This document shows positions 3,063-10,566 of a stretch of 19,043 nucleotides of DNA, one piece after another; position 1 is the stretch's first letter, and every line of letters begins with the position of its first letter. Under the pieces are notes generated by a model. The model had not been told where the DNA came from. It searched no databases and saw only the letters and a program-made list of their open reading frames with translations. The DNA is from Candidatus Omnitrophota bacterium (GTDB lineage Bacteria > Omnitrophota > Gorgyraeia > Gygaellales > Profunditerraquicolaceae), in assembly GCA_018818365.1 (NCBI GenBank), contig JAHISH010000031.1:1-19043 (forward strand), in the 5' to 3' direction. Position numbers and translations under genes: made by a program.

Positions 3063-3842
3063 TTAAGGATAAATTCTGGTAGGATAACCTTCTTGGGCAA
3101 GCTTCCTTTCGAAAGTTACCGCTTCTGGGCGTGTCTGAAACTTACCTATTCTTACTTGATGAAAAGGCCTTCCGCCCTTTGTCGTTACCTCTATATAGGC
3201 GAGATAATTATCTTTTTTCAACTTACGTAAAAGGTTTTGCGCGTTCTTCTCGTTTGAGAATGAACCGACCTGTACTGAATAACACAGGGTGACGCCGGAT
3301 TCAGAAAGCACGCATATCTCCTCTTCTCCTTTTGACTCCAGGTTAAGGGGGAATTCATTTTTAAGAAGCGCCAGATATTCCTGCGCCTGTAGCGTATTGC
3401 CTTCCTTAAACGCTATCTGGCTTAAACGGTAATAGGCTTGCGCACCGCAGTTTTCTTTTGCCGCTCCTAAAAGGAGCTCTTGATAATACTTCTTTGCAGA
3501 AAACATATTACCCTGCAAGAAATACGTATCGGCTAAGCCTAGCGTGGCGACATCCCTTAGACGGCTCCCTTTAAATTCATTCAATATGATCTCAAATATG
3601 TCAGACGCCCGAAGATAGTCGCGATCTTTTAGATAACTTAGACCCAAAAGGTAATACAAATCGTCGGAAGAAGCAGAACTTGGATCTTCTGCCAAAAGCC
3701 GCTCTCCCTCCCGAATCGCCTGTGTATACTCTCCCGCCAGAAAATATTTCTTCAAGCGTTCCTGGTTTGACGCAAAACAGTTATCATGCGCGCTAATACC
3801 CCACCACACCCCCACGCATAAAATTAAGAAATATCTCATCAT
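3063..3842 (-). CDS. Exported TPR-like and SPOR-domain protein
   Basis: This 259-residue protein starts with a signal peptide (basic MMRY, hydrophobic FLILCVGVWWGISA, likely cleavage near residue 25). A helical region of about four TPR-like repeats follows (about residues 27-165, with motifs such as YYLLGLSYLKDRDYLRASDIF and AYYRLSQIAFKEGNTLQAQEYL). It ends in a SPOR domain (about 187-259: YSVQVGSFSNEKNAQNLLRKL, then HQVRIGKFQTRPEA). SPOR domains bind denuded septal peptidoglycan, so a periplasmic or envelope role in division or wall remodelling is likely. The gene overlaps the end of miaB by ATGA and abuts miaA, so it is translated with the tRNA-modification genes. No enzymatic motif is visible, and I cannot assign a named orthologue. 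Confidence 0.85.
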   Translation of the reverse strand: MMRYFLILCVGVWWGISAHDNCFASNQERLKKYFLAGEYTQAIREGERLLAEDPSSASSDDLYYLLGLSYLKDRDYLRASDIFEIILNEFKGSRLRDVATLGLADTYFLQGNMFSAKKYYQELLLGAAKENCGAQAYYRLSQIAFKEGNTLQAQEYLALLKNEFPLNLESKGEEEICVLSESGVTLCYSVQVGSFSNEKNAQNLLRKLKKDNYLAYIEVTTKGGRPFHQVRIGKFQTRPEAVTFERKLAQEGYPTRIYP

Positions 3843-5044
3843 CCCTTTACTTTTCCTTTAGAAATAGTTTTTTGTAATTTTAACATCTGGGCATGTCTTC
3901 GTTCTTTTTCTTTGCGTTCCACGGTATCTTCCATTGTAGAAGCGCTAGTATAAGGACGTGGGGAATACTTAAAAATGAATGCCGCATCAAAAACCACTTC
4001 CTTCACCAAATTGTAGGTATCCTGAAAATCCTCTAACGTTTCTGTGGGGAACCCTATGATTATATCAGTAGTCAATACCCCGTTTTTTACCATTGTACGG
4101 TAATTGCGGCTTAAGTCCAGATAAAACTCTCTCTCATAACCGCGGTTCATCAGTTTAAGAATCCTGTTCGAACCAGATTGAATAGGAAGATGAAGATACT
4201 TTTTAAGTTTCTCCAAGCTGCCCATGACCTTAAAGAGCTCCCGGGAAGTATCTTTAGGATGGGAAGTAATAAAACTAAATTCCTTTAACCCGGATATCTC
4301 ATTGACTTTTATCAATAGATCCGTAAAGCGTACCGGTGATTGCGCATCTTCAGCCGATTGAGAATACGCATTCACATTCTGCCCCAGCAGTGTTATCTTG
4401 GTAATCCCTCTTTCCATCGCTTCCTCTATTTCCTTAATAATCGCTTTGGACTCGCGGTTACGCAACGCCCCCCGCGCATAAGGGACCACACAATAAGAAC
4501 AGAAGTTAGAACACCCTTCTGATATTACTACATACGCATGGACTTTTTCCTGATAGAAACCGGTATGGTAGATTACATCGGGTCGTGTCTTCCCTTCTGT
4601 CTCCCAAATCTTGGTTTTAAATAAGGGACTGTCCCCGCAAGGGGACTCACCCTTATGGGGGCCTGACAAAAACTTCTCTATAATAGAAGGAATCTTATGG
4701 ATATCCGAAGGCCCCACCACAAAATCGACCTGTGGCGCGCGCTCAAAGATCTTTTCTTTATGACTCTGCGCCATACAACCAATTATACCTAGTATTTTAT
4801 TCATAGGGACTGTCCCCGAAGGGGACTGTCCCTTACGTTTAAATCTCCCCACTTCGCTCCAGACCTTCTCCTCCGCGTGCTGACGCACCGAACAGGTATT
4901 AAGGATAACAATATCCGCCTGCGCAGGCTCATCAGTGATATGGAAACCTGCTTGCGTAAGCACGCCGCAGACAACCTCAGAATCCCTGACATTCATCTGA
5001 CAGCCGAAGGTGCGGATGAAAACTTTTTTCTTATCTTCTTTCAT
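3839..5044 (-). CDS. miaB: tRNA 2-methylthio-N6-isopentenyladenosine synthase MiaB, without TRAM domain
   Basis: This radical-SAM methylthiotransferase converts i6A37 to ms2i6A37 in tRNA. The N-terminal UPF0004 domain has the auxiliary-cluster cysteines C15 (TFGCQMN), C51 (NTCSVR) and C90 (GCMAQ). The radical-SAM domain has C178, C182 and C185 (CSNFCSYC), followed by GQNVNAY and HLPIQSGSNRIL. The protein has 401 residues and ends just after the SAM domain at KLQKTISKGKVKG, so the C-terminal TRAM tRNA-binding domain usual in MiaB is missing. Two copies of a palindromic repeat are inserted in frame (near residues 71-80 and 130-141). A TAA codon four codons upstream makes this the first ATG; no clear Shine-Dalgarno is present. 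The stop overlaps the next gene by ATGA. MiaB is preferred over MtaB because of the adjacent miaA. Confidence 0.93.
   Translation of the reverse strand: MKEDKKKVFIRTFGCQMNVRDSEVVCGVLTQAGFHITDEPAQADIVILNTCSVRQHAEEKVWSEVGRFKRKGQSPSGTVPMNKILGIIGCMAQSHKEKIFERAPQVDFVVGPSDIHKIPSIIEKFLSGPHKGESPCGDSPLFKTKIWETEGKTRPDVIYHTGFYQEKVHAYVVISEGCSNFCSYCVVPYARGALRNRESKAIIKEIEEAMERGITKITLLGQNVNAYSQSAEDAQSPVRFTDLLIKVNEISGLKEFSFITSHPKDTSRELFKVMGSLEKLKKYLHLPIQSGSNRILKLMNRGYEREFYLDLSRNYRTMVKNGVLTTDIIIGFPTETLEDFQDTYNLVKEVVFDAAFIFKYSPRPYTSASTMEDTVERKEKERRHAQMLKLQKTISKGKVKG
4624..4655. repeat. REP-like palindromic repeat inside miaB, copy 2
   Basis: The minus strand contains AAGGGTGAGTCCCCTT, then GCGGGGACAGTCCCTT. 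It is a near-copy of the repeat at 4805-4834 and is built from GGGGAC/GTCCCC arms that can pair as a hairpin. It encodes about KGESPCGDSP in MiaB, in a variable loop between the GC(90) motif and the radical-SAM cysteines. One extra base in the loop relative to the other copy shifts which codons the second half uses, yet the miaB frame stays open. Confidence 0.7.
4805..4834. repeat. REP-like palindromic repeat inside miaB, copy 1
   Basis: The minus strand contains AAGGGACAGTCCCC, TTC, then GGGGACAGTCCCT. It has two GGGGAC-A-GTCCCC-type palindromes back to back, and the central GTCCCC/GGGGAC arms can form a tight hairpin. It encodes KGQSPSGTVP (residues 71-80), which appears as an insertion when compared by eye with the E. 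coli MiaB sequence between the second and third cluster cysteines. It matches the copy at 4624-4655 over nearly its whole length. Confidence 0.7.
4994..5008 (-). repeat. Core repeat, copy A, in intact miaB
   Basis: TTCGGCTGTCAGATG encodes FGCQM of intact MiaB. The identical 15 bases recur at 6617-6631, and a 13/15 match is at 7947-7961. All are on the minus strand and all sit in the same reading phase after an ATG and a short MiaB-like N-terminus. They could be junctions left by repeated insertion into miaB. Confidence 0.6.
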
Positions 5045-5139
5045 ATCAGCGAGTTACGACTTTTAAACCAAGTGTCTAAAACTGCATAACCGAACGTTAT
5101 GAATACTAAAAAACCCTTTATTTGGCCGAATTTCGCCAT
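5041..5139 (-). CDS. Possible 32-residue single-span membrane peptide coupled to miaB
   Basis: This open frame starts with ATG at 5139 and ends with a TGA that overlaps the miaB start codon (ATGA), the usual layout for translational coupling. The peptide starts MAKFGQIKG, has a hydrophobic centre FLVFITFGYAVLDTWF and ends KSRNSLI, so it could be a one-helix membrane peptide. The fragment VFITFGYAVLD also vaguely resembles MiaB VFIRTFGCQMN, so it could instead be a badly decayed miaB 5' end. No good Shine-Dalgarno sequence is present upstream. It may be chance; I do not recognise a family. Confidence 0.25.
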   Translation of the reverse strand: MAKFGQIKGFLVFITFGYAVLDTWFKSRNSLI

Positions 5140-5205
5140 TTCAAGAGGTTCTCGATGTCTGAAACTGTACAAAGGACTTTTTCAGCAGACTGCTAATTAT
5201 TGCCT

Positions 5206-5682
5206 TTAATTATCAAAATTCAAATCCACATTTTTATCTTCTAGGAATGGAAACAATTCTTTGTCTTCTTTCTGTGCGTGCTGCAACACCGCCCCTAACA
5301 TTTCTTTCGACGTCTCGATAAATTTATTTTTCATCTCATTATTAAGAGAAAATCCGTATTTCATAATTATGTCTGCGATAATGTCAAACCTGCTAATAAT
5401 AAAGATATGCTGTTGTTGAAGTTCCCTAACCACTTGTTTAATCTCCAAATCTCCAATAGCTAATGCTATAGGAAACACTTCGTGCTCTTCCCATTCAAAG
5501 TGCTTAAGAACAGAATCCTTAAAAAAATCAATCACTTTTCTGATGTTAGAATATGCCTCCTCATCATTTAAATATTGTAATGATTTTTTGAGCATCCACA
5601 TTTGCTCTGAAACTTCTTTGTGCTCCTCCCTTACTTTATCAAAAGCACTATCCTTTTTCTGTTCCTCTTTTCTCTCTTGCAT
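5206..5682 (-). CDS. Hemerythrin-like HHE-domain protein
   Basis: This 158-residue all-helical protein carries the ligand set of a non-heme di-iron hemerythrin-like domain: H21, H61-x3-E65, H92 and H135-x3-E139. Such proteins bind O2, NO or iron and act in oxygen sensing, storage or nitrosative-stress repair; the role here cannot be fixed. There is no signal peptide, so it is cytoplasmic. The ATG has a strong AAGGAGG 4 bases upstream. It follows an unrecognised Cys-motif gene by 75 bases with no clear terminator or promoter between, so they probably form a two-gene unit. This pair looks more A+T-rich by eye than the neighbouring housekeeping genes and lies between two copies of the miaB 5' end, suggesting acquired cargo. 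Confidence 0.85.
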   Translation of the reverse strand: MQERKEEQKKDSAFDKVREEHKEVSEQMWMLKKSLQYLNDEEAYSNIRKVIDFFKDSVLKHFEWEEHEVFPIALAIGDLEIKQVVRELQQQHIFIISRFDIIADIIMKYGFSLNNEMKNKFIETSKEMLGAVLQHAQKEDKELFPFLEDKNVDLNFDN

Positions 5683-5757
5683 GCCGCCTCCTTTTTGAGA
5701 ATATTCCTATCATATCAAAAACAGACCGTTCCGATTGTGCCGATTCTACCATAGAAA

Positions 5758-6483
5758 TTAATAATGGTGCATATAAGATTGCTCAAAGTTCTCAAATGTC
5801 TTCTTAAGAGTATCTTCTATATCCATGGTCAGGAATTCTGAAACTACCTGAGTATTTACAAAAGCGTTCATAAAAACATCGTTCTTGCATACGAGATTCA
5901 TACGCTTTACTTGATTCTCGCTTGAGATTGTTAATTCTTCCTTGAATTGCGCGATAGTTCTATCTAACTCTTCCTTGTTTCCTTTATGGTACCAATACAT
6001 GTTTATGTATACTTTAGCAGCAACCTCACGCCCATCCATTAAGGGTATGGCGCCATAATAATATTTCCAATATCTACGTAGTATCAAGTTATAACGCAAT
6101 AGGCTCAAGATAGAGACATACTGCAGGGCTTTCTGCATGGTGGTCTGTTTAACATGAACCATGCCGTCTTGACTACTTTTGTATACAGCTGTTACTTCAT
6201 CGAATGAAAGATATTTATCTATCTTGTCTAAAAAAGGCAATACTGGTCGAATAGCGTCACAAATATCCTCTTTATTTTTGCGGGGGCAAAATGGGCATTT
6301 TTGAAAATCGATTGCCTTTTTCATCGCTGGGGTAATTCTTGAAGGATCTTGCCAAAATGCGTCACTGGAGTTTTCGATATTCTTTTTCGTAAGCTCAATC
6401 CTGGTTGAATCGGAAAAAAGCAAATAAAGACCTTCATCAACAAAGCTATCTAATATAATATTTTCTACTTTAGCATCACCCAT
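5758..6483 (-). CDS. Unrecognised 241-residue protein with CPFCPRKNKEDIC motif
   Basis: I do not recognise this family. The frame is well supported: ATG with GAGGAGG 4 bases upstream and a promoter about 85 bases upstream. The N-terminal third (LYLLFSDSTRIELT, then FWQDPSRITPAMKKAIDFQKCPFCP) looks like a compact domain with C63, C66 and C75, a possible metal or redox site. The centre (about residues 112-165) is rich in aromatic and hydrophobic helices (YVSILSLLRYNLILRRYWKYYYG), but no clear membrane span or signal peptide is present. The last third is charged and helical. It is followed by the hemerythrin-like gene, perhaps in one operon, so a role with oxygen, NO or metal is possible but unproven. 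Both genes are bracketed by miaB 5'-end copies. Confidence 0.75.
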   Translation of the reverse strand: MGDAKVENIILDSFVDEGLYLLFSDSTRIELTKKNIENSSDAFWQDPSRITPAMKKAIDFQKCPFCPRKNKEDICDAIRPVLPFLDKIDKYLSFDEVTAVYKSSQDGMVHVKQTTMQKALQYVSILSLLRYNLILRRYWKYYYGAIPLMDGREVAAKVYINMYWYHKGNKEELDRTIAQFKEELTISSENQVKRMNLVCKNDVFMNAFVNTQVVSEFLTMDIEDTLKKTFENFEQSYMHHY

Positions 6484-6567
6484 CTAGCCTCCTCTGGTTT
6501 TCCACTTACGTTCGGTTCACTTTTTGCTGATTATCCTAACTCTTTATCCCACGTGCAGTTAATTCTT

Positions 6568-6595
6568 ATCATACCACTCTCTTAAGGAGTGTAAA
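6568..6595 (-). promoter_or_regulatory. Promoter for the unrecognised gene and hemerythrin pair
   Basis: On the minus strand TTTACA (6590-6595) is followed after 16 bases by TATGAT (6568-6573), with TGG before it giving an extended -10. It overlaps the tail of the miaB remnant frame and lies about 85 bases before the next gene start. The spacer holds a palindrome, and TTACACTC occurs twice, 13 bases apart (6587-6594 and 6600-6607), so control by a DNA-binding protein is plausible. Confidence 0.6.
6575..6591. repeat. Palindrome within promoter spacer
   Basis: CACTC (6575-6579) and GAGTG (6587-6591) flank a central CTTAAG palindrome. The whole lies between the -10 and -35 of the promoter at 6568-6595, the usual place for a repressor site. 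No cognate regulator was identified. Confidence 0.4.
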
Positions 6596-6616
6596 ATCCG
6601 AGTGTAACAATTTGTC

Positions 6617-6631
6617 CATCTGACAGCCGAA
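6617..6631 (-). repeat. Core repeat, copy B
   Basis: TTCGGCTGTCAGATG is identical to copy A at 4994-5008 in miaB. It ends the MiaB-like part of the remnant at 6569-6655; sequence after it (GACAAATTG) is unlike miaB. Confidence 0.6.
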
Positions 6632-6669
6632 TGTTTTAATATAGACTTTAGGCATAATTTGTTGAAATA

Positions 6670-7791
6670 TTATTTTTCTACCTGCGGCCAGATTAGATCA
6701 TAATGCACGCTGCGGCCCTTGCCGGGCAACTGGCGTAGGATTTTTTTATCCAGCATATCCGAAATTTCGCGAAATGCCGTGGCGCGGCTGGTCTTTGTGA
6801 TACTCACATATTTACGCGTCGTCAGCCCACCGGTAAAATTCCCCTGTCCGGCTTCTAGCATGCGGTTAATAACCTTTTTTTGCCGTTCATTAAGCTCGTC
6901 CTGGGCATGCTGGTTCCAGAAATCAACTTTCATAAATATGCCCGCAATGATATCGCGCGAATCCTCTATAGATGCCGTAACGCACTTAATAAACCACAAA
7001 AACCATTCTGTCACATCAAGACGGCATCTCTGCACATTCTCAAGGATCGTATAGTATTCGTTGCGTGAACGCACGATTTCTGAGGAGACACTATAAAATC
7101 TCACCTTAAGTTTCTCATCCTGAGCCAATGCCATATCCGTCAAGGCCCTCGCCAACCGTCCATTCCCGTCTTCATAAGGGTGAATTGTCAGAAACCGTAA
7201 ATGGACCACGGCCGCGCGCAAGATGCCATCCATGCTACCCTGTGATGAATTCCACCATTCCAAGAAAAGCCGCATCTCCTTATCGAGACGATTCTTTGGT
7301 AATGCCTCAAAATGCACCTTTTCTTTGCCGATGGGACCAGATACTATCTGCATAGGCTCATCGCCTCGCAACTGGCCTGCCGTGATTTTCCTTAAACCAG
7401 AATGTCCTGAAGGGAATAATCCCGCCTGCCAGCCATTAAGCCGTTTTAATGTCAAAGGCTTATCATGAAAACGAACCGCATCTAATAAAACATCCACCAG
7501 GCCGTCAATATTGCGGTCATGCAAGCCGACACCCTTGGGCAAACCAAGCCTAATAGCAACTGAAGAGCGGACTGCGTCACGGTTAAGTTTCTGCCCCTCG
7601 ATCTCCGCGGTCCGTACGGCTTCTTCAACTAAAATAGCACTTTGAGCTTCTGTCTCAAGCTTAATATCAAGAGATGAGATGCGACCCAATAACTTCCCCT
7701 GCAAAACCCGTAACTCGCTCAAGGGCTTAAGCAAAGCATCAAAATCATATTTGAAATCAAACCAGTTTTCGCGTTCCCAAACGTATTTCAT
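6670..7791 (-). CDS. Class II Fic-domain protein (DUF4172-type) with C-terminal winged helix
   Basis: Fic proteins usually transfer AMP from ATP to Ser, Thr or Tyr of target proteins. This one has 373 residues. An N-terminal DUF4172-like region opens with WERENWFDFKYD. An inhibitory helix carries TAEIEG (61-66), which fits the (S/T)xxxE(G/N) rule with the inhibitory Glu, making it class II. The Fic core has the intact catalytic motif HPYEDGNGR (204-212), and a winged helix-turn-helix sits near residues 300-370. The ATG has AGGAG 6 bases upstream. It is preceded by an extended -10 promoter and a 13-base perfect palindrome, and the C-terminal DNA-binding fold hints at autoregulation. No partner toxin or antitoxin gene is adjacent. 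It lies between two miaB 5'-end remnants, so it is probably acquired cargo. Confidence 0.92.
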   Translation of the reverse strand: MKYVWERENWFDFKYDFDALLKPLSELRVLQGKLLGRISSLDIKLETEAQSAILVEEAVRTAEIEGQKLNRDAVRSSVAIRLGLPKGVGLHDRNIDGLVDVLLDAVRFHDKPLTLKRLNGWQAGLFPSGHSGLRKITAGQLRGDEPMQIVSGPIGKEKVHFEALPKNRLDKEMRLFLEWWNSSQGSMDGILRAAVVHLRFLTIHPYEDGNGRLARALTDMALAQDEKLKVRFYSVSSEIVRSRNEYYTILENVQRCRLDVTEWFLWFIKCVTASIEDSRDIIAGIFMKVDFWNQHAQDELNERQKKVINRMLEAGQGNFTGGLTTRKYVSITKTSRATAFREISDMLDKKILRQLPGKGRSVHYDLIWPQVEK

Positions 7792-7801
7792 TGGATTCTC
7801 C

Positions 7802-7830
7802 TGAAGCGATTATCCCAGATAATCGCTTCA
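7802..7830. repeat. 13-base perfect inverted repeat before fic, plus a third half site
   Basis: TGAAGCGATTATC (7802-7814) and GATAATCGCTTCA (7818-7830) are perfect inverted repeats with a 3-base spacer. A further half site, TAATCGCTTCA (7854-7864), lies in the promoter spacer, 34 bases from the matching arm. The palindrome ends exactly where the fic Shine-Dalgarno AGGAG begins, so it could be a DNA operator, an mRNA hairpin hiding the ribosome site, or both. The third DNA half site favours an operator. Confidence 0.7.
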
Positions 7831-7842
7831 ATTCATGATATA

Positions 7843-7871
7843 ATTATACCATCTAATCGCTTCAAATGCAA
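7843..7871 (-). promoter_or_regulatory. Extended -10 promoter of fic
   Basis: On the minus strand a consensus TATAAT (7843-7848) is preceded by TGG, an extended -10. The -35 at 17 bases (TTGCAT, 7866-7871) is weak, as often with extended -10 promoters. The repeat half site TAATCGCTTCA overlaps the spacer, and the 13-base palindrome lies downstream in the leader, so the promoter is likely repressible. Confidence 0.7.
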
Positions 7872-7934
7872 ATATAAACAATTCTACGTTAATCCGTTCC
7901 TTCCAACACCTCCGCCAAACTCTCCAGAATCCGT

Positions 7935-7988
7935 CTATAAGGTGTCCATCGGCCAGCCGAAGGTCCTTATAAAAACTTTCCTGCTCAT
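7935..7988 (-). pseudogene. miaB 5'-end remnant, copy C
   Basis: Nine bases after the antiporter stop, an ATG at 7988 opens a 17-codon frame, MSRKVFIRTFGWPMDTL, then TAG. It matches MiaB KKVFIRTFGCQM closely, but the cluster cysteine and glutamine are replaced by W and P (TGTCAG became TGGCCG), so it looks more decayed than copy B. The core at 7947-7961 matches 13 of 15 bases of the other copies. I read it as an old displaced miaB start that once followed the antiporter gene directly. Confidence 0.65.
7947..7961 (-). repeat. Core repeat, copy C
   Basis: TTCGGCTGGCCGATG matches 13 of 15 bases of the core found in miaB and in copy B. GGACA follows it, as after copy B but not in miaB. Confidence 0.5.
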
Positions 7989-8011
7989 GTTATTCTGTTA
8001 TTTTGTTATTT
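7988..8011. repeat. Three tandem 8-base units at the antiporter gene end
   Basis: TGTTATTC, TGTTATTT and TGTTATTT follow one another on the plus strand. They span the last codons and stop of the antiporter gene and reach the ATG of miaB remnant C. Replication slippage is a likely origin. Confidence 0.6.
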
Positions 8012-9725
8012 TTCTTACGATATGTTTAGAGGCAAATATATCTTGTAGTAACGGCCAGATATCGTGCGAATCCTCAGCGGTAAGAATAGCGTTCCTAATC
8101 TGGACATCGCCCATAGCCTTTGCAATACACCTCAAGATCTTGACTTGCGTATCATAGTCTTCTTCAGGGGTCAATATTAAGAAGACCAGGCGGGTTAATT
8201 TTCCATCAGGCGAATTCCAATCTATCCCATCAAGCGACCTGCCAAAAAGAACTAAAGGTCTTTTGATCACCGGAAGCCGGGCATGCGGCACCGCAATGCC
8301 TTCTTCTATGGCGGTCCCCATCTCATTTTCGCGTTTTTTGACTGCCTCGTAAATACTCTCCTGCTCCAGCACATCTTCTTGAACTGCCGCAAGCGCACAA
8401 AGCTCCTGAATAGCCATATCTCTCTGATTATGCTTAAGATGCCCAATGATGCTTCTCCCAGAGAAATACTCTAAAATACTTACCTGCGTACGTTTTCTTA
8501 TCGAATAATCGAACCACGGGCCCAGAATAACAGAAGATACCACTGCCCCAAACACAATAGCGACAAAGACTGGTTCGGTAATGAGATTATACTCTAACGC
8601 AAGCAAACCAACCACAATCTCCATCGCCCCGCCCGGGGTATGCGCAATCGCAATCGATAGACGGTTTGACTTTGGAAGTTTAGTAAGATTGACCCCCCAC
8701 CACGCGCCAAGGAACCTTCCAGAAATACCGATCACACTTATTAACAAAACAAGAAAAATATCGAAACTACGCAAGAAATCAACCTTCAGGCCGATATTCA
8801 CAAAGAACAAAGGCACGAATATCGCATAGACCATCTGCGAGATGACCTGCCGTACGTTTTCGGAAAGCGCGCGTGAACCTCCCGCCATGATGCCGGCAAT
8901 AAAAAAACCAAAAAGCGCATGTATCCCTATCTTCTGTGTTACCGCGCCGCAGAATGCTCCCAATAAACAGATAAATGTAAGCGGCACTCCCGGTTGAGGA
9001 AGCTGCGCAGCCTTTATTCCCGAAATTATTTTATCTGCGAATCTCCTGCCTATCGTAAGACAAAATACGGTAAACGCGATAGTTGCACCCGTAATAGTAA
9101 ATATCTTGACAAAATCTAAACCGGCCTGCGTAAAGACCCCAAGCACCAGAGTAAAAATAATCCAGCCGATAATATCATTCACCGATAGAGCGGACATAAT
9201 CAGGAAGCCTAAATCGGTCTTAGAAAGTTTCAGGTCATGCAAGACACGTGCCGCAATCGGCATCGCGCTTATAGTCATCACCGTTGCCATAAATATTGAG
9301 AAAATGATCCTTTGTTGCGGATTGGCCAAATAGCGGTCCGGCAGAAGAAAACAGGGGATAAACGCGATCGACATCGGGATGATAATGTCCGCTAATGCGA
9401 TCTTGAGCGCATCTCCTCTTTGCCGCCATGCGGAGGCAAAATCGATCTCAAGTCCCGTCTCCAGCAAGAGGAATAAAACCCCTATCCATGCAACCGTCTC
9501 AAGCATATTCTGTTGGATTACATTATTGGGAAATATGGCTTGATGCCAAAAAGGCAGAAACCTCCCCAGAATAGTAGGTCCCAAGAGTATTCCGACTAAA
9601 ATCTCTGCAGTAAGCGGCGGCTGTTTCCATTTGCGGAACAATTCTCCTAATCCGCGTGCAAAGCCTAAAAGAATCACTATCTGGATAAGAAAAATAAAAA
9701 TATTTTGTTCATTAAGATAGTTCAT
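7998..9725 (-). CDS. Cation/proton antiporter fused to a PTS EIIA-like domain
   Basis: This 575-residue membrane protein has about 12 hydrophobic segments in residues 8-405, typical of the Na_H_Exchanger (CPA) fold. Signature stretches are PLTAEILVGILLGPTILG (37-54), GVLFLLLETGLEID (82-95) and PIAARVLHDLKLSKTDLG (156-173). The transport-site pair is N183-D184 (SVNDIIGW). The C-terminal part (about 430-570) resembles a type-2 PTS EIIA domain with GIAVPHARL and a candidate phospho-acceptor H481. The fusion suggests antiport controlled by PTS phosphorylation or by a small ligand, which is inference. The ion (Na+ or K+) cannot be read from sequence. The ATG at 9725 has no strong Shine-Dalgarno. 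A transcription terminator upstream separates it from the membrane-protein gene. Confidence 0.9.
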   Translation of the reverse strand: MNYLNEQNIFIFLIQIVILLGFARGLGELFRKWKQPPLTAEILVGILLGPTILGRFLPFWHQAIFPNNVIQQNMLETVAWIGVLFLLLETGLEIDFASAWRQRGDALKIALADIIIPMSIAFIPCFLLPDRYLANPQQRIIFSIFMATVMTISAMPIAARVLHDLKLSKTDLGFLIMSALSVNDIIGWIIFTLVLGVFTQAGLDFVKIFTITGATIAFTVFCLTIGRRFADKIISGIKAAQLPQPGVPLTFICLLGAFCGAVTQKIGIHALFGFFIAGIMAGGSRALSENVRQVISQMVYAIFVPLFFVNIGLKVDFLRSFDIFLVLLISVIGISGRFLGAWWGVNLTKLPKSNRLSIAIAHTPGGAMEIVVGLLALEYNLITEPVFVAIVFGAVVSSVILGPWFDYSIRKRTQVSILEYFSGRSIIGHLKHNQRDMAIQELCALAAVQEDVLEQESIYEAVKKRENEMGTAIEEGIAVPHARLPVIKRPLVLFGRSLDGIDWNSPDGKLTRLVFLILTPEEDYDTQVKILRCIAKAMGDVQIRNAILTAEDSHDIWPLLQDIFASKHIVRKITK

Positions 9726-9882: not shown

Positions 9883-10554
9883 CTACTTCTTTTTTAATTT
9901 CTCAATGAACTCGTTGACTAATTTTCCTGCGATATCCTTGCATCCAAGGCCAAACGCAAGTGCTAACCCAAGCCCCACAGATCCGAAGACGATACCGATG
10001 GTTAATTCGGTAATACGTATACCAATCCTAAGCTGTTCCAAGGCGATAAAAATCGCGAATATAATAATCGCCACCTCAACTGCTTTGCTTAAGACCTGCC
10101 CCTGTGAAAGCCCCGCGTTACTTGCTGCTGCCTGCACGATATTCTTCATGAATGTACCCACAAAAAGACCGGCGATCATGATAAATACCGCGGAAACCAC
10201 ATTAGGAACAAAAAGTATAATCCGATTCAATAAATCTGCCGCCATAGTCAGTCCTACGGCATTTATTGCAAGCATTGCGGTCATCAAGATACCGAACCAA
10301 TACGCAATTACCCCTAAAACCTCGGAGAGCGTTAATCCTATTCCGCCCTTCTTTAGCACATTCTCCAACCCAAAACGTTCTGAAAGTCCATCAAGCGGCT
10401 TGGTCAACTTGCCGATAATGGTCCGTACGAACCGGGAGACCATCCAACCAAGAAATAGGATAATAAGCGCAACCAAAAACTTCAACCCCAGCAACGCAAA
10501 TTGTCCCAAAAGAACTCTCGCGGGTTCAAGTAACACGAGCAATTGATTACTCAT
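9883..10554 (-). CDS. Conserved-TM-helix (mechanosensitive-channel-like) membrane protein
   Basis: This protein of 223 residues has five or so hydrophobic segments. Pairs of the conserved TM helix (PF05552-like) are visible: LKFLVALIILFLGWMVSRFV with a charged follow-on, FVPNVVSAVFIMIAGLFVGTFM, and a C-terminal GSVGLGLALAFGLGCKDIAGKLVNEF resembling the pore-lining TM3 of MscS. The MscS beta domain is absent, so it is a small inner-membrane relative and channel activity is unproven. An earlier GTG at 10560 touches the ribosome site, so I chose the ATG at 10554, which has AAGGAGGTG five bases away. It has its own promoter (10624-10652) and terminator (9816-9858), so it is a single-gene unit. 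Confidence 0.85.
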   Translation of the reverse strand: MSNQLLVLLEPARVLLGQFALLGLKFLVALIILFLGWMVSRFVRTIIGKLTKPLDGLSERFGLENVLKKGGIGLTLSEVLGVIAYWFGILMTAMLAINAVGLTMAADLLNRIILFVPNVVSAVFIMIAGLFVGTFMKNIVQAAASNAGLSQGQVLSKAVEVAIIIFAIFIALEQLRIGIRITELTIGIVFGSVGLGLALAFGLGCKDIAGKLVNEFIEKLKKK

Positions 10555-10557
10555 CTC

Positions 10558-10566
10558 CACCTCCTT
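10558..10566 (-). promoter_or_regulatory. Strong ribosome binding site deciding the start at 10554
   Basis: AAGGAGGTG on the minus strand matches the full anti-Shine-Dalgarno sequence. It overlaps the possible GTG start at 10560, which excludes that codon, and is well spaced from ATG at 10554. Confidence 0.8.

Follow-up and report, generated by a model that had tools for sequence, protein, structure and literature searches.

The miaB locus

The window analysed here, a 19,043-nucleotide contig of an Omnitrophota assembly that is 80.9% complete, carries an intact miaB gene preceded by accessory genes and by two short frames that begin as miaB does (Table 1). A preliminary description had noted three miaB 5' ends at this locus, and all three are present with the starts and spacings it gave: copy B starts (6655) 14 bases past the fic stop (6670) and copy C (7988) 9 bases past the antiporter stop (7998). 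The 15-base core that it found identical in miaB and copy B is confirmed as well, with the exact 15-mer TTCGGCTGTCAGATG occurring in the window's own assembly solely at 4994-5008 and 6617-6631 (a reversed-pattern control gave 0).

The truncated ends bound two cassettes, and both the DUF6901 and hemerythrin ORFs of cassette 2 are co-directional with miaB. In the window's intact miaB, the first eight codons belong to the last cassette, of which they form the right end. By analogy with the genome pair G055/G075 described below, the crossover dinucleotide TG would lie at 5001-5002. The window's antiporter is likewise extra when compared with relatives having an empty site. No left junction for it was found in the window. 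In G166 and in G082 a homologue of the antiporter comes directly after a cassette junction, and in G198 one lies inside a cassette, but a junction is absent at 9 of the 12 homologue loci read with their flanks.

Table 1. Features of the miaB locus in the window (all on the minus strand)
Feature	Position	Strand	Detail or evidence
Intact miaB	3839..5044	-	Pfam UPF0004 + Radical_SAM
Core in intact miaB	4994-5008	-	TTCGGCTGTCAGATG
Cassette 2 (1623 bp), made up of a recombinase tail, the genes for DUF6901 and hemerythrin, and a new miaB 5' end	5001..6623	-	nhmmer bounding junctions
Cargo: hemerythrin-domain protein	5206..5682	-	PF01814, 2.5e-13
Cargo: DUF6901 protein	5758..6483	-	PF21842, 2.5e-9
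LSR C-terminal tail, type I, left end of cassette 2	6559..6621	-	RWTNCYTRILHSLREWYDKN stop
Promoter-like TTTACA-16-TATGAT within type I tail	6568..6595	-	consensus match only
Junction B: truncated miaB 5' end, ATG through core TTCGGCTGTCAGATG	6617..6655	-	
Cassette 1 (1330 bp), made up of a recombinase tail, fic and a miaB-like 5' end	6624..7953	-	bounding junctions
Cargo: Fic-domain protein, DUF4172 + Fic	6670..7791	-	PADLOC SoFic 3.2e-43
LSR C-terminal tail, type II, left end of cassette 1	7889..7951	-	RWTPYRRILESLAEVLEGTD stop
Junction C: truncated miaB 5' end, core TTCGGCTGGCCGATG at 7947-7961	7947..7988	-	
Na/H exchanger + PTS EIIA antiporter, between msc and miaB	7998..9725	-	
msc-type membrane gene, miaB's upstream neighbour in empty-site relatives	9883..10560	-	G235, G125

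Truncated miaB starts in Omnitrophota

Short frames of this kind occur above chance, which the preliminary description had left as a point to be checked. Run against 948 kb of fetched loci, a 48-base junction profile gave 132 matches at E<0.1 (a count that takes in intact starts, seeds and overlapping loci) and 0 in reversed sequence, and a profile built from intact miaB starts alone still found 22 non-intact sites at E<1e-3, again with 0 in reversed sequence. The GG and TG are invariant across 87 aligned junctions, partly by construction, as seeds were chosen with the G-C/W motif. The pattern GGCCGATG occurs at 29 sites in 27 of 384 genomes of the phylum (control, 2 sites); 5 of the 29 have no tail of the kind described below and look chance-like, and L086 (Ns) and L089 (off-pattern) are doubtful. 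Given this recurrence of GGCCGATG at truncated junctions, copy C need not be a decayed core.

The same architecture is found throughout the phylum Omnitrophota, with up to 4 cassettes in tandem, and other cargo bounded by the same core is present in many genomes, a point that the preliminary description had proposed to check. Since the genomes are mostly drafts and many contigs stop at the miaB site, some of the junctions could be products of misassembly, a doubt that does not extend to the closed G075 genome. Two kinds of copy are a misfit to a simple scheme of insertion: type B junctions with inverted copies, and the copies in G085 and G172, which run past the core as miaB.

A recombinase gene end behind the junctions

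Past the core, most truncated ends go on to encode, in the frame shifted by one base relative to miaB, a conserved C-terminal tail; this stretch is the 3' end of a gene for a large serine recombinase (LSR). The end of miaB similarity right after the core, correctly noted in the preliminary description, thereby gains a cause: the conserved 3' end of the LSR gene begins there. The LSR is continuous with the tail in three cases, namely phage contig L248 of IMG/VR (581 aa), G165 and G075. Tails near-identical to the type I tail of the window are found in G145 and G301, with L248 in the same group, and the main tails have a common RW..Y.. pattern. Differences between tails fall by codon position as 49/52/85, highest at the third (18 pairs, p=0.0016), in tails that were preselected by a motif in that frame and with L248 in none of the pairs. 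An AlphaFold2 model of the tail places a helix at 560-580 with a pLDDT of about 30-46, too low to support a structural claim.

These observations bear on whether the short frames might instead encode leader peptides with a function for miaB or the cargo, unrelated to insertion. The frames do start with ATG and precede genes, but the frame conserved past the core is the other one, and in the three contiguous cases it is the LSR C-terminus, which makes leader peptides scarcely credible. It is also very improbable that homologous recombination or tandem duplication produced the truncated starts with no site-specific recombinase involved. The miaB starts of different strains could act as short homology, and the G085 and G172 copies may be of such origin; against this, of the 22 non-intact sites that the profile from intact starts detected, 13 are followed by the tail and 9 lack it, compared with a tail at 1 of 148 random GGNTG sites, an LSR is linked to the site, and a clean empty/filled pair exists.

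Large serine recombinases at miaB

A recombinase linked to miaB-bounded cargo, which the preliminary description had suggested seeking, was found in relatives. Among the 44 best named LSR loci (Omnitrophota, Elusimicrobia and Margulisbacteria), a full-length LSR lies directly before miaB in 42; the remaining two are one before an MtaB-like gene and one fragment. None of 36 more distant LSR loci adjoins miaB. In a search of 285 genomes, the 31 strongest matches comprise 26 that stop at miaB, 3 that continue into a junction tail, 1 that stops at an MtaB-like gene and 1 (G065) that is ambiguous. As LSRs are 96% identical across genomes whose adjoining MiaB proteins are only 41-43% identical, the element has been transferred to the same site.

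The G130 LSR has the Resolvase catalytic domain, Recombinase domain and zinc ribbon (PF00239, PF07508, PF13408), the three domains that, with a length of about 500-600 aa, mark the LSR class, and the best solved relatives are the TP901-1 integrase and SPbeta YokA. The features expected of LSR att sites are also found: a short attL/attR core, a non-palindromic overlap dinucleotide (TG) and a fixed orientation. The pairing of the G130 LSR with a type I tail is probably wrong, as G075 joins a 97% identical LSR to an RCLPYRHSM tail.

LSRs at miaB range down to about 40% identity and some are 40-45% alike, which together with the several tail groups means that different enzymes may share the site. 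Could several unrelated mobile elements have used one convenient site, with the arrays a mixed hotspot and not one system? The diversity of LSRs and tails, the type B junctions with inverted copies and the presence of a Y1 transposase-like gene within one cassette of G237 point that way, and the searches used one LSR family as query, so that others could have been missed. We nevertheless consider a mixed hotspot unlikely, since the LSRs at miaB align to one query across most of their length and the main tails have their RW..Y.. pattern in common.

Empty and filled sites

In G235 and G125, an msc-type gene lies 196 bp and 362 bp before miaB, respectively, with no gene between, so that both have an empty site, the lack of which in relatives the preliminary description had named as counter-evidence. 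An antiporter or fic gene directly before intact miaB, which that description had suggested looking for, was not seen in any other genome. In the same-genus pair G055 and Ca. Velamenicoccus archaeovorus (G075), one site is empty and one filled: an 18.8-kb LSR element lies exactly at the TG of miaB codon 9 (GGT-TG / TG-TCA), and the flanking sequence to either side shows about 80% identity. The pair rules out a crossover left of codon 6. The long palindromes seen at some miaB starts were rejected as integron-like att hairpins, as the KVFIKTFG codons are near-palindromic by themselves and the G055/G075 crossover lies outside the palindrome centre.

With the crossover at the TG of codon 9, codons 1-8 are replaced. 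Serial insertion at the miaB 5' end, each event bringing a replacement 5' end, as the preliminary description had it, is supported by the pair and the empty sites, and also by the linked recombinase and the other cargo with the same core. Its placing of insertions in codons 9-17 gives way to the TG of codon 9, and the short frames are not peptides: each joins the right end of one insertion to the left end of the next.

Cassettes and their cargo

In 23 chosen cassettes, cargo is co-directional for 45 of 48 ORFs, and 12 of the 23 are 0.76-1.7 kb long. The distance from the tail stop to the start of the first co-directional ORF is -22 to 128 nt (21 of 22 cassettes); in 20 of 22, a gap of 10-193 nt separates the end of the last ORF from the K codon that follows. 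One cassette end with methyltransferase cargo (about 400 bp, 74-91% identity) is common to six genomes: in G232 and G094 it leads into intact miaB, whereas in G127, G337, G079 and G311 four different tails follow it. Cargo is also common to different families. Defence-type genes at the locus include HamA/HamB, AbiE, SIR2 and Fic. The G237 cassette with the Y1 transposase-like gene and the G130 island, which has cargo genes behind left tails as well, are further observations on content.

A promoter scan of the window stretch gave 10 sites compared with 8.0 +/- 2.7 in shuffles, with no enrichment. An RNA element in the conserved leader behind type I tails was considered and rejected: the 5 Rfam matches in the window, L034, L036 and L060 (best E 0.56) all fell well short of the gathering scores, and RNAalifold on 13 such leaders found no pairs.

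A search of the window's own assembly (80.9% complete) gave no LSR match at E<=1e-20, and the cassettes there may therefore be fixed. This is in keeping with the small cassettes being remnants of larger LSR islands that lost the recombinase by internal deletion and were then fixed, as are the cargo genes behind left tails in the G130 island and a stretch in G259, just upstream of the first junction, that by eye resembles a serine recombinase start. No excised small cassette was seen. On the other side, the cassettes are compact with tight ORF spacing, one cassette stands beside different partners, and cargo is common to several families. We therefore regard the remnant origin as doubtful, while giving it appreciable weight.

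Proposed mechanism and significance

Here, we propose that the locus results from LSR-mediated, site-specific insertion of islands and of LSR-less cassettes, each restoring the miaB start, a reading that we hold to be highly probable. The site, the junction structure, the LSR association, one empty/filled pair and the exchange of partners at the core can be read from the sequences themselves. The 5' end of miaB would be attB for a family of LSRs, and the element circle would have its attP within the 3' part of the coding sequence for the integrase that it carries. To the left of the crossover, the bases would encode the C-terminus of the LSR and, in a frame shifted by one base, working miaB codons 1-8; to the right, they would encode the last approximately 20 LSR residues (the RW.. 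tail). Recombination at the TG in GGNTG (codons 8-9), presumably catalysed by the LSR, would leave the former miaB 5' end joined to the tail on the left, while on the right miaB would receive a new upstream region, a start and its first eight codons, and so probably still be expressed. As the miaB site is regenerated, more islands and small LSR-less cassettes could insert in tandem, the latter probably moved by an LSR acting in trans. Tandem units would all point one way, and the window would be two cassettes plus the added antiporter.

A bolder reading, which we put forward tentatively as a possibility, is that this is a serine-integrase counterpart of the integron, a chromosomal platform for cassettes in Omnitrophota, in which an LSR acting in trans captures, stacks and reshuffles single accessory and anti-phage genes at the miaB start. 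The integrase C-terminal tail, swapped at each insertion, could then switch the direction of the reaction: it would be present in the circle or with a cassette behind it and lost with miaB behind it. This tail swap is a testable idea on direction control in serine integrases.

Small cassettes of one or two genes and larger islands with an integrase appear to enter the miaB start in succession, which would let accessory and defence genes accumulate with the housekeeping gene miaB left intact. If our proposal is true, integron-like cassette arrays can be built by an LSR with a housekeeping gene start as the moving boundary, and it would account for a variable locus with defence-type genes in a large, hardly cultured bacterial group. 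In practical terms, miaB offers a boundary for locating cargo in Omnitrophota, and the loci are a source of serine integrases together with their natural att sites.

Comparison with known systems

As described in part of PMC3146451, the ssrA islands of Dehalococcoides use the serine recombinase DsiB, lie in tandem at one single-copy gene, are bounded by a repeat of ssrA and include 15 units without an integration module, proposed to move with their neighbours. The miaB arrays resemble them in having a serine recombinase, tandem units at one gene, bounding repeats and recombinase-less units. They differ in that the ssrA islands, as there described, are whole islands with a CcrB homologue and a small partner recombinase, whereas insertion at miaB replaces the 5' end of a protein-coding gene, with units as small as one gene. 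The defining insertion at ssrA with a six-gene integration module is not what is found here: the site is miaB, and no such module was noticed in two LSR loci read gene by gene.

SCC elements insert at the rlmH 3' end and exist in tandem and recombinase-less forms. Their serine recombinases (CcrA/CcrB) move cassettes at one essential gene, according to passages of PMC3146451. The miaB system works alike, with tandem cassettes at one site and some of these without a recombinase, but SCC has paired recombinases and is not known to replace a gene start. Judged by its site, miaB, the system is not SCC, which is defined by a ccrA/ccrB pair and rlmH insertion.

The integrase of dusA islands is of the tyrosine type, another family than the LSR at miaB. 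These islands insert into the 5' end of a tRNA-modification gene, and integration may restore the gene according to a section heading of PMC4482086, a paper in which "tandem" does not occur as a word. The likeness to dusA islands drawn in the preliminary description consequently holds for the logic and fails for the enzyme, the locus having miaB and an LSR in place of dusA and its own integrase family.

Burkholderia phage JC1 integrates by a serine recombinase in the 5' end of rimO, a gene of the same enzyme family as miaB, via an 18-bp overlap (passages of PMC9144972). In JC1 the integrase gene has attP 41 bp upstream of it, whereas the attP of the miaB elements would lie inside the integrase 3' end, and JC1 is described as one prophage, with no cassettes mentioned in those passages. 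In mycobacteriophage BPs, attP is inside a phage gene and integration shortens the C-terminus of the product (abstract of PMC4557955); there it is the repressor gene that is cut, while in the miaB elements it would be the integrase gene itself. Among the matches listed, titles and abstract openings of the open-licence literature contained no LSR or cassettes at miaB.

Integrons are arrays of small co-directional cassettes exchanged at a short core, and their integrase IntI is a tyrosine recombinase that uses attC hairpins. The miaB arrays have a serine recombinase at the site in place of IntI and attI, and cassette ends made of a miaB 5' end and an LSR tail in place of an attC hairpin. They are thus built on an LSR and a gene start, and it is in their compactness that they are integron-like.

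Recurrent junctions at the start of miaB

Junctions in which a miaB 5' end is fused to a tail recur across the phylum Omnitrophota, to which the window belongs. They have a fixed breakpoint, are linked to a large serine recombinase (LSR) whose C-terminus constitutes the tail, and come with one pair of empty and filled sites and with exchange of partners. We propose that the LSR performs the insertion reaction, that cassettes (intervals between consecutive junctions) lacking an LSR would have moved in trans or along with their neighbours, as one account likewise proposes for ssrA islands (PMC3146451), and that miaB expression would persist after insertion.

The preliminary description placed three miaB starts on the minus strand of the window, the intact gene and the truncated copies B and C upstream of it, and their positions agree with the sequence. 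The exact core (a short miaB 5' stretch with GGNTG at codons 8-9) occurs at 2 sites in the whole assembly, both inside the window (control, 0), and copy C, as described there, differs from it at 2 bases. That assembly totals 1.63 Mb in 295 contigs, the window being one of them. A miaB-start pattern applied to 285 phylum genomes gave, among the matches listed, paired nearby starts on one strand in G172, G259, G222, G145, G085 and G130, with 0 listed for the reversed control. Genome G341 has 4 successive truncated starts ahead of intact miaB, spaced by about 1 kb, and the copies of G222 lie 111 bases apart, without a tail of the usual form. The second starts of G172 and G085 (loci L033, L037) may be of a different kind: their similarity extends beyond the core as miaB, unlike that of the LSR junctions.

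Because the fetched loci (948 kb) were chosen for having such sites and partly overlap, profile counts in them test chance, not prevalence: a 48-base junction profile gave 118 matches at E<1e-3, rising to 132 at E<0.1, and an intact-starts-only profile 74 at E<1e-3 (22 non-intact), with 0 in reversed sequence throughout. Prevalence is drawn solely from the GGCC junction form, present in 27/384 phylum genomes at 29 sites (5 without a tail, 2 doubtful; reversed control, 2 sites), and from the type I tail pattern, present in 9/108 family genomes, at least two of them (G104, G251) chance-like. Palindromes of about 36 bp, perfect or near-perfect, are centred around the miaB-start codons KVFIKTFG in L040, L041, L043, L060 and L068; L041 and L068, from different classes, have most bases upstream of the palindromic start in common.

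Among the matches listed, the upstream contig end is no more than 400 bp from the core in 12/72 on the plus strand (13 including one truncated copy), and the downstream end is that close in 0/78 on the minus strand (Fisher p=9e-5; counted by hand, a few matches not being miaB). Such a pattern would be expected from strain variation at the site, and it also calls for caution over draft contigs.

The tail

Behind the truncated starts, copy B and G145 are 82% identical over 139 bases. Most truncated junctions encode, one base off the miaB frame, a peptide of about 17-22 residues followed by a stop; a few are broken or longer than usual. Tail differences at codon positions 1/2/3 number 49/52/85 (18 independent pairs, preselected by a loose motif in that same frame; chi-square p=0.0016), a skew which speaks for selection on the tail as protein. 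At non-intact sites found without truncated seeds, the tail is present in 13/22 and absent in 9/22; it occurs at 1/148 random GGNTG sites of reversed sequence. Among 13 aligned leaders behind type I tails no RNA structure was found; a motif in that alignment is kept from the phage contig described below to the cassettes.

The recombinase at miaB

In G130, a 561-aa LSR with Resolvase, Recombinase and zinc ribbon domains terminates within the miaB start, in the tail frame; its closest solved relatives are the TP901-1 and SPbeta (YokA) integrases. LSR protein matches at E<=1e-20 occur in 123/285 genomes. A recombinase adjoining miaB in relatives, a possibility raised by the preliminary description, is indeed found: the strongest matches (E<1e-110) number 31 in 29 genomes, at 42-100% identity, and 26 of them terminate at miaB, at offsets of -16 to +263 nt. 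Another three read on into a junction tail instead (G165, the second copy in G075 and the one on contig 6 of G055), and that of G065 has no clear assignment to miaB, tail or MtaB-like gene. Such an MtaB-like gene (FLTLGCKVNQYET) replaces miaB at the LSR 3' end in L199 and L153 (G247, 1 of the 31), which suggests that site specificity is able to shift to a paralogue.

Among the matches listed from 80 named GTDB loci, miaB stands at the LSR 3' end in 42 of the best 44 (40-100% identity), including Elusimicrobia and Margulisbacteria/WOR-1/Saganbacteria, the other two being the one with the MtaB-like gene (L199) and a fragment (L211). It does so in 0 of the remaining 36, where the motif could miss one, as it missed L178 and L179, found otherwise and counted in the 42. 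Identity among G130, G075 and G045 is 96% for the LSR and 41-43% for the MiaB protein beside it. The genome that the window comes from gave no LSR match at E<=1e-20, and the window may thus be a resting array.

Where miaB comes next, the LSR stops at once, because miaB ATGAAY reads as TGA in the LSR frame, and 17/18 aligned LSRs finish there in R or K. Where no miaB follows, the LSR can continue into the tail: in G165 (the 18th), in LSR A of G075, and on an IMG/VR contig (581 aa, C-terminus SDARWRQCYIPILQLLGDVHMKA). Hence attP most likely lies within the LSR gene, and an insertion behind an LSR alters its final residues. We hypothesise that this tail swap is a direction switch, an idea which AlphaFold modelling of the tail neither supported nor refuted.

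The IMG/VR contig is a phage, 8 of its proteins having been compared with PHROGs: the matches were to a terminase small subunit, an internal virion protein, a replication protein, an endolysin (weak) and, for both the LSR and a tyrosine-type protein of 192 aa, to integrases, and 2/8 had no match. No exact terminal repeat of at least 15 bases was found in it, so that it may be a fragment, an opened circle or an element integrated in tandem.

Empty and filled sites

Two genomes of one genus (g57), G055 and G075 (Ca. Velamenicoccus archaeovorus), provide the empty and the filled site. In G055, LSR A leads into miaB as ..AGAACCATCGGT-TG-TCAAATGAACGTC. In G075 the left flank, 80% identical to G055 over 2.3 kb, reads ..AGAACCATCGGT-TG-GCCGTTGTCTACC; an 18.8 kb insert with LSR B follows, then ..TTCGGA-TG-TCAGATGAACGTC and miaB, 79% identical to G055 over 1.8 kb. 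No flank loss was found at this site. The overlap dinucleotide is TG, since the variable base before it goes with the left half and the following bases with the right. The C-terminus of LSR A reads ..EPSVVK in G055 versus ..EPSVGRCLPYRHSMADLAEALIGAD in G075. GG and TG are invariant across 40 truncated and 47 intact aligned junctions, partly by construction because the seeds had the G-C/W motif.

The msc gene and miaB share 11 loci, with gaps of 196 bp (G235) and 362 bp (G125), of 0.84-18 kb in 8 others and of 4.8 kb in the window. Given the short gaps, the simplest reading is that the antiporter, fic, DUF6901 and hemerythrin genes of the window were added; a left junction for the antiporter was looked for within the window and not found.

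Cassettes, cargo and shuffling

The arrays read gave 23 cassettes, LSR-bearing intervals excluded, of 0.76-5.7 kb, 12 being under 1.7 kb. Cargo runs in the miaB direction in 45/48 ORFs of at least 70 aa (14870/15174 residues). From tail stop to first co-directional ORF there are -22 to 128 nt in 21/22 intervals (657 in G123), and from last such ORF to next junction 10-193 nt in 20/22 (563 in G169, 461 in G079).

Pfam scans covered 32 of the 43 cargo proteins that run with miaB and reach 90 aa; 27 matched, including Fic, hemerythrin, ExoD, methyltransferase, glyoxalase, TauE, chloride channel, carbamoyltransferase, AbiEi/AbiEii, SIR2-like, NACHT, CHAT, HamA and helicase, and 5 did not. PADLOC matched 8 of 10 chosen proteins (HamB at E=0, AbiEi, AbiEii, SoFic, PDC-S21, SIR2, two weaker) and not the other 2. 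Defence-type genes are therefore present, on these chosen proteins. One L149 interval pairs HamA, recognised by Pfam, with HamB, recognised by PADLOC, a combination found in Hachiman, and also carries a PDC-S21/DUF4917 gene. In an L156 cassette, an IS200-like Y1 transposase-domain protein adjoins an AbiEi/nucleotidyltransferase pair. By eye, DsrE-like, Fur-like and ferritin-like cargo occurs in both G198 (L371) and the G130 island (L038), families apart.

Cargo bounded by the same core in relatives, which the preliminary description proposed to look for, is exemplified by a methyltransferase gene carried in a G341 cassette. Present in 25/108 family genomes, it ends within about 45 nt of a junction or miaB start in 8/15 loci (the L358 junction scoring E=0.12) and is bounded on both sides in 4/15. 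The same stretch of about 400 bp on the left side of the junction is followed by miaB in two genomes (G232, G094) and by a different tail in each of four others (G127, G337, G311 and, from another family, G079); G247 supplies a fifth partner, with a 77% match to the G337 flank. Antiporter homologues occur in 24/285 genomes at E<=1e-80 (own genome counted). In G166, and in G082 from another class, the homologue is the first gene of a cassette, and in G198 it shares a cassette with the methyltransferase; 9/12 loci read with flanks have no nearby junction, so the gene is often elsewhere.

A second junction type (L190, L044, L128) has tails such as PWVVFYKSLKPFLFSVFQFE on the strand opposite miaB, and its left flank of 150-170 bp is 95-100% identical to the same locus's miaB-start flank, an inverted copy of the element right end; related tails (LMLRLYNILYLFFKIQ) occur in L151 and L034.

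Features of the miaB junction system
Feature	Source	Coordinates	Sequence
Tail, copy B (type I)	window		RWTNCYTRILHSLREWYDKN
Tail, copy C (type II)	window		RWTPYRRILESLAEVLEGTD
Tail	G341		RWFRCYKPILQFLGQLYNCN
Tail, further example			RWVQYYTTIITYLSEIW
Motif behind type I tail	window	6500-6560	CCGAACGTAAGTGGAAA-like
Hachiman-type interval between two junctions	L149	3274-8613	
Cassette with Y1 transposase-domain protein	L156	5470-8291	
Tyrosine-type integrase, phage contig	L248	15103-15681	

Relation to known systems

Tandem serine-recombinase islands are known from SCC. They are also described at ssrA (PMC3146451). For phage JC1, LSR insertion is described at the 5' end of rimO, a MiaB-family gene (PMC9144972), and the 5' end of dusA is known to take up islands too (PMC4482086). 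In the open-licence literature on miaB, LSR att sites and Omnitrophota mobile elements we found no report of this combination. As far as this literature shows, what is new is the combination itself: one-gene cassettes, miaB as boundary, attP within the integrase gene, and partner exchange.
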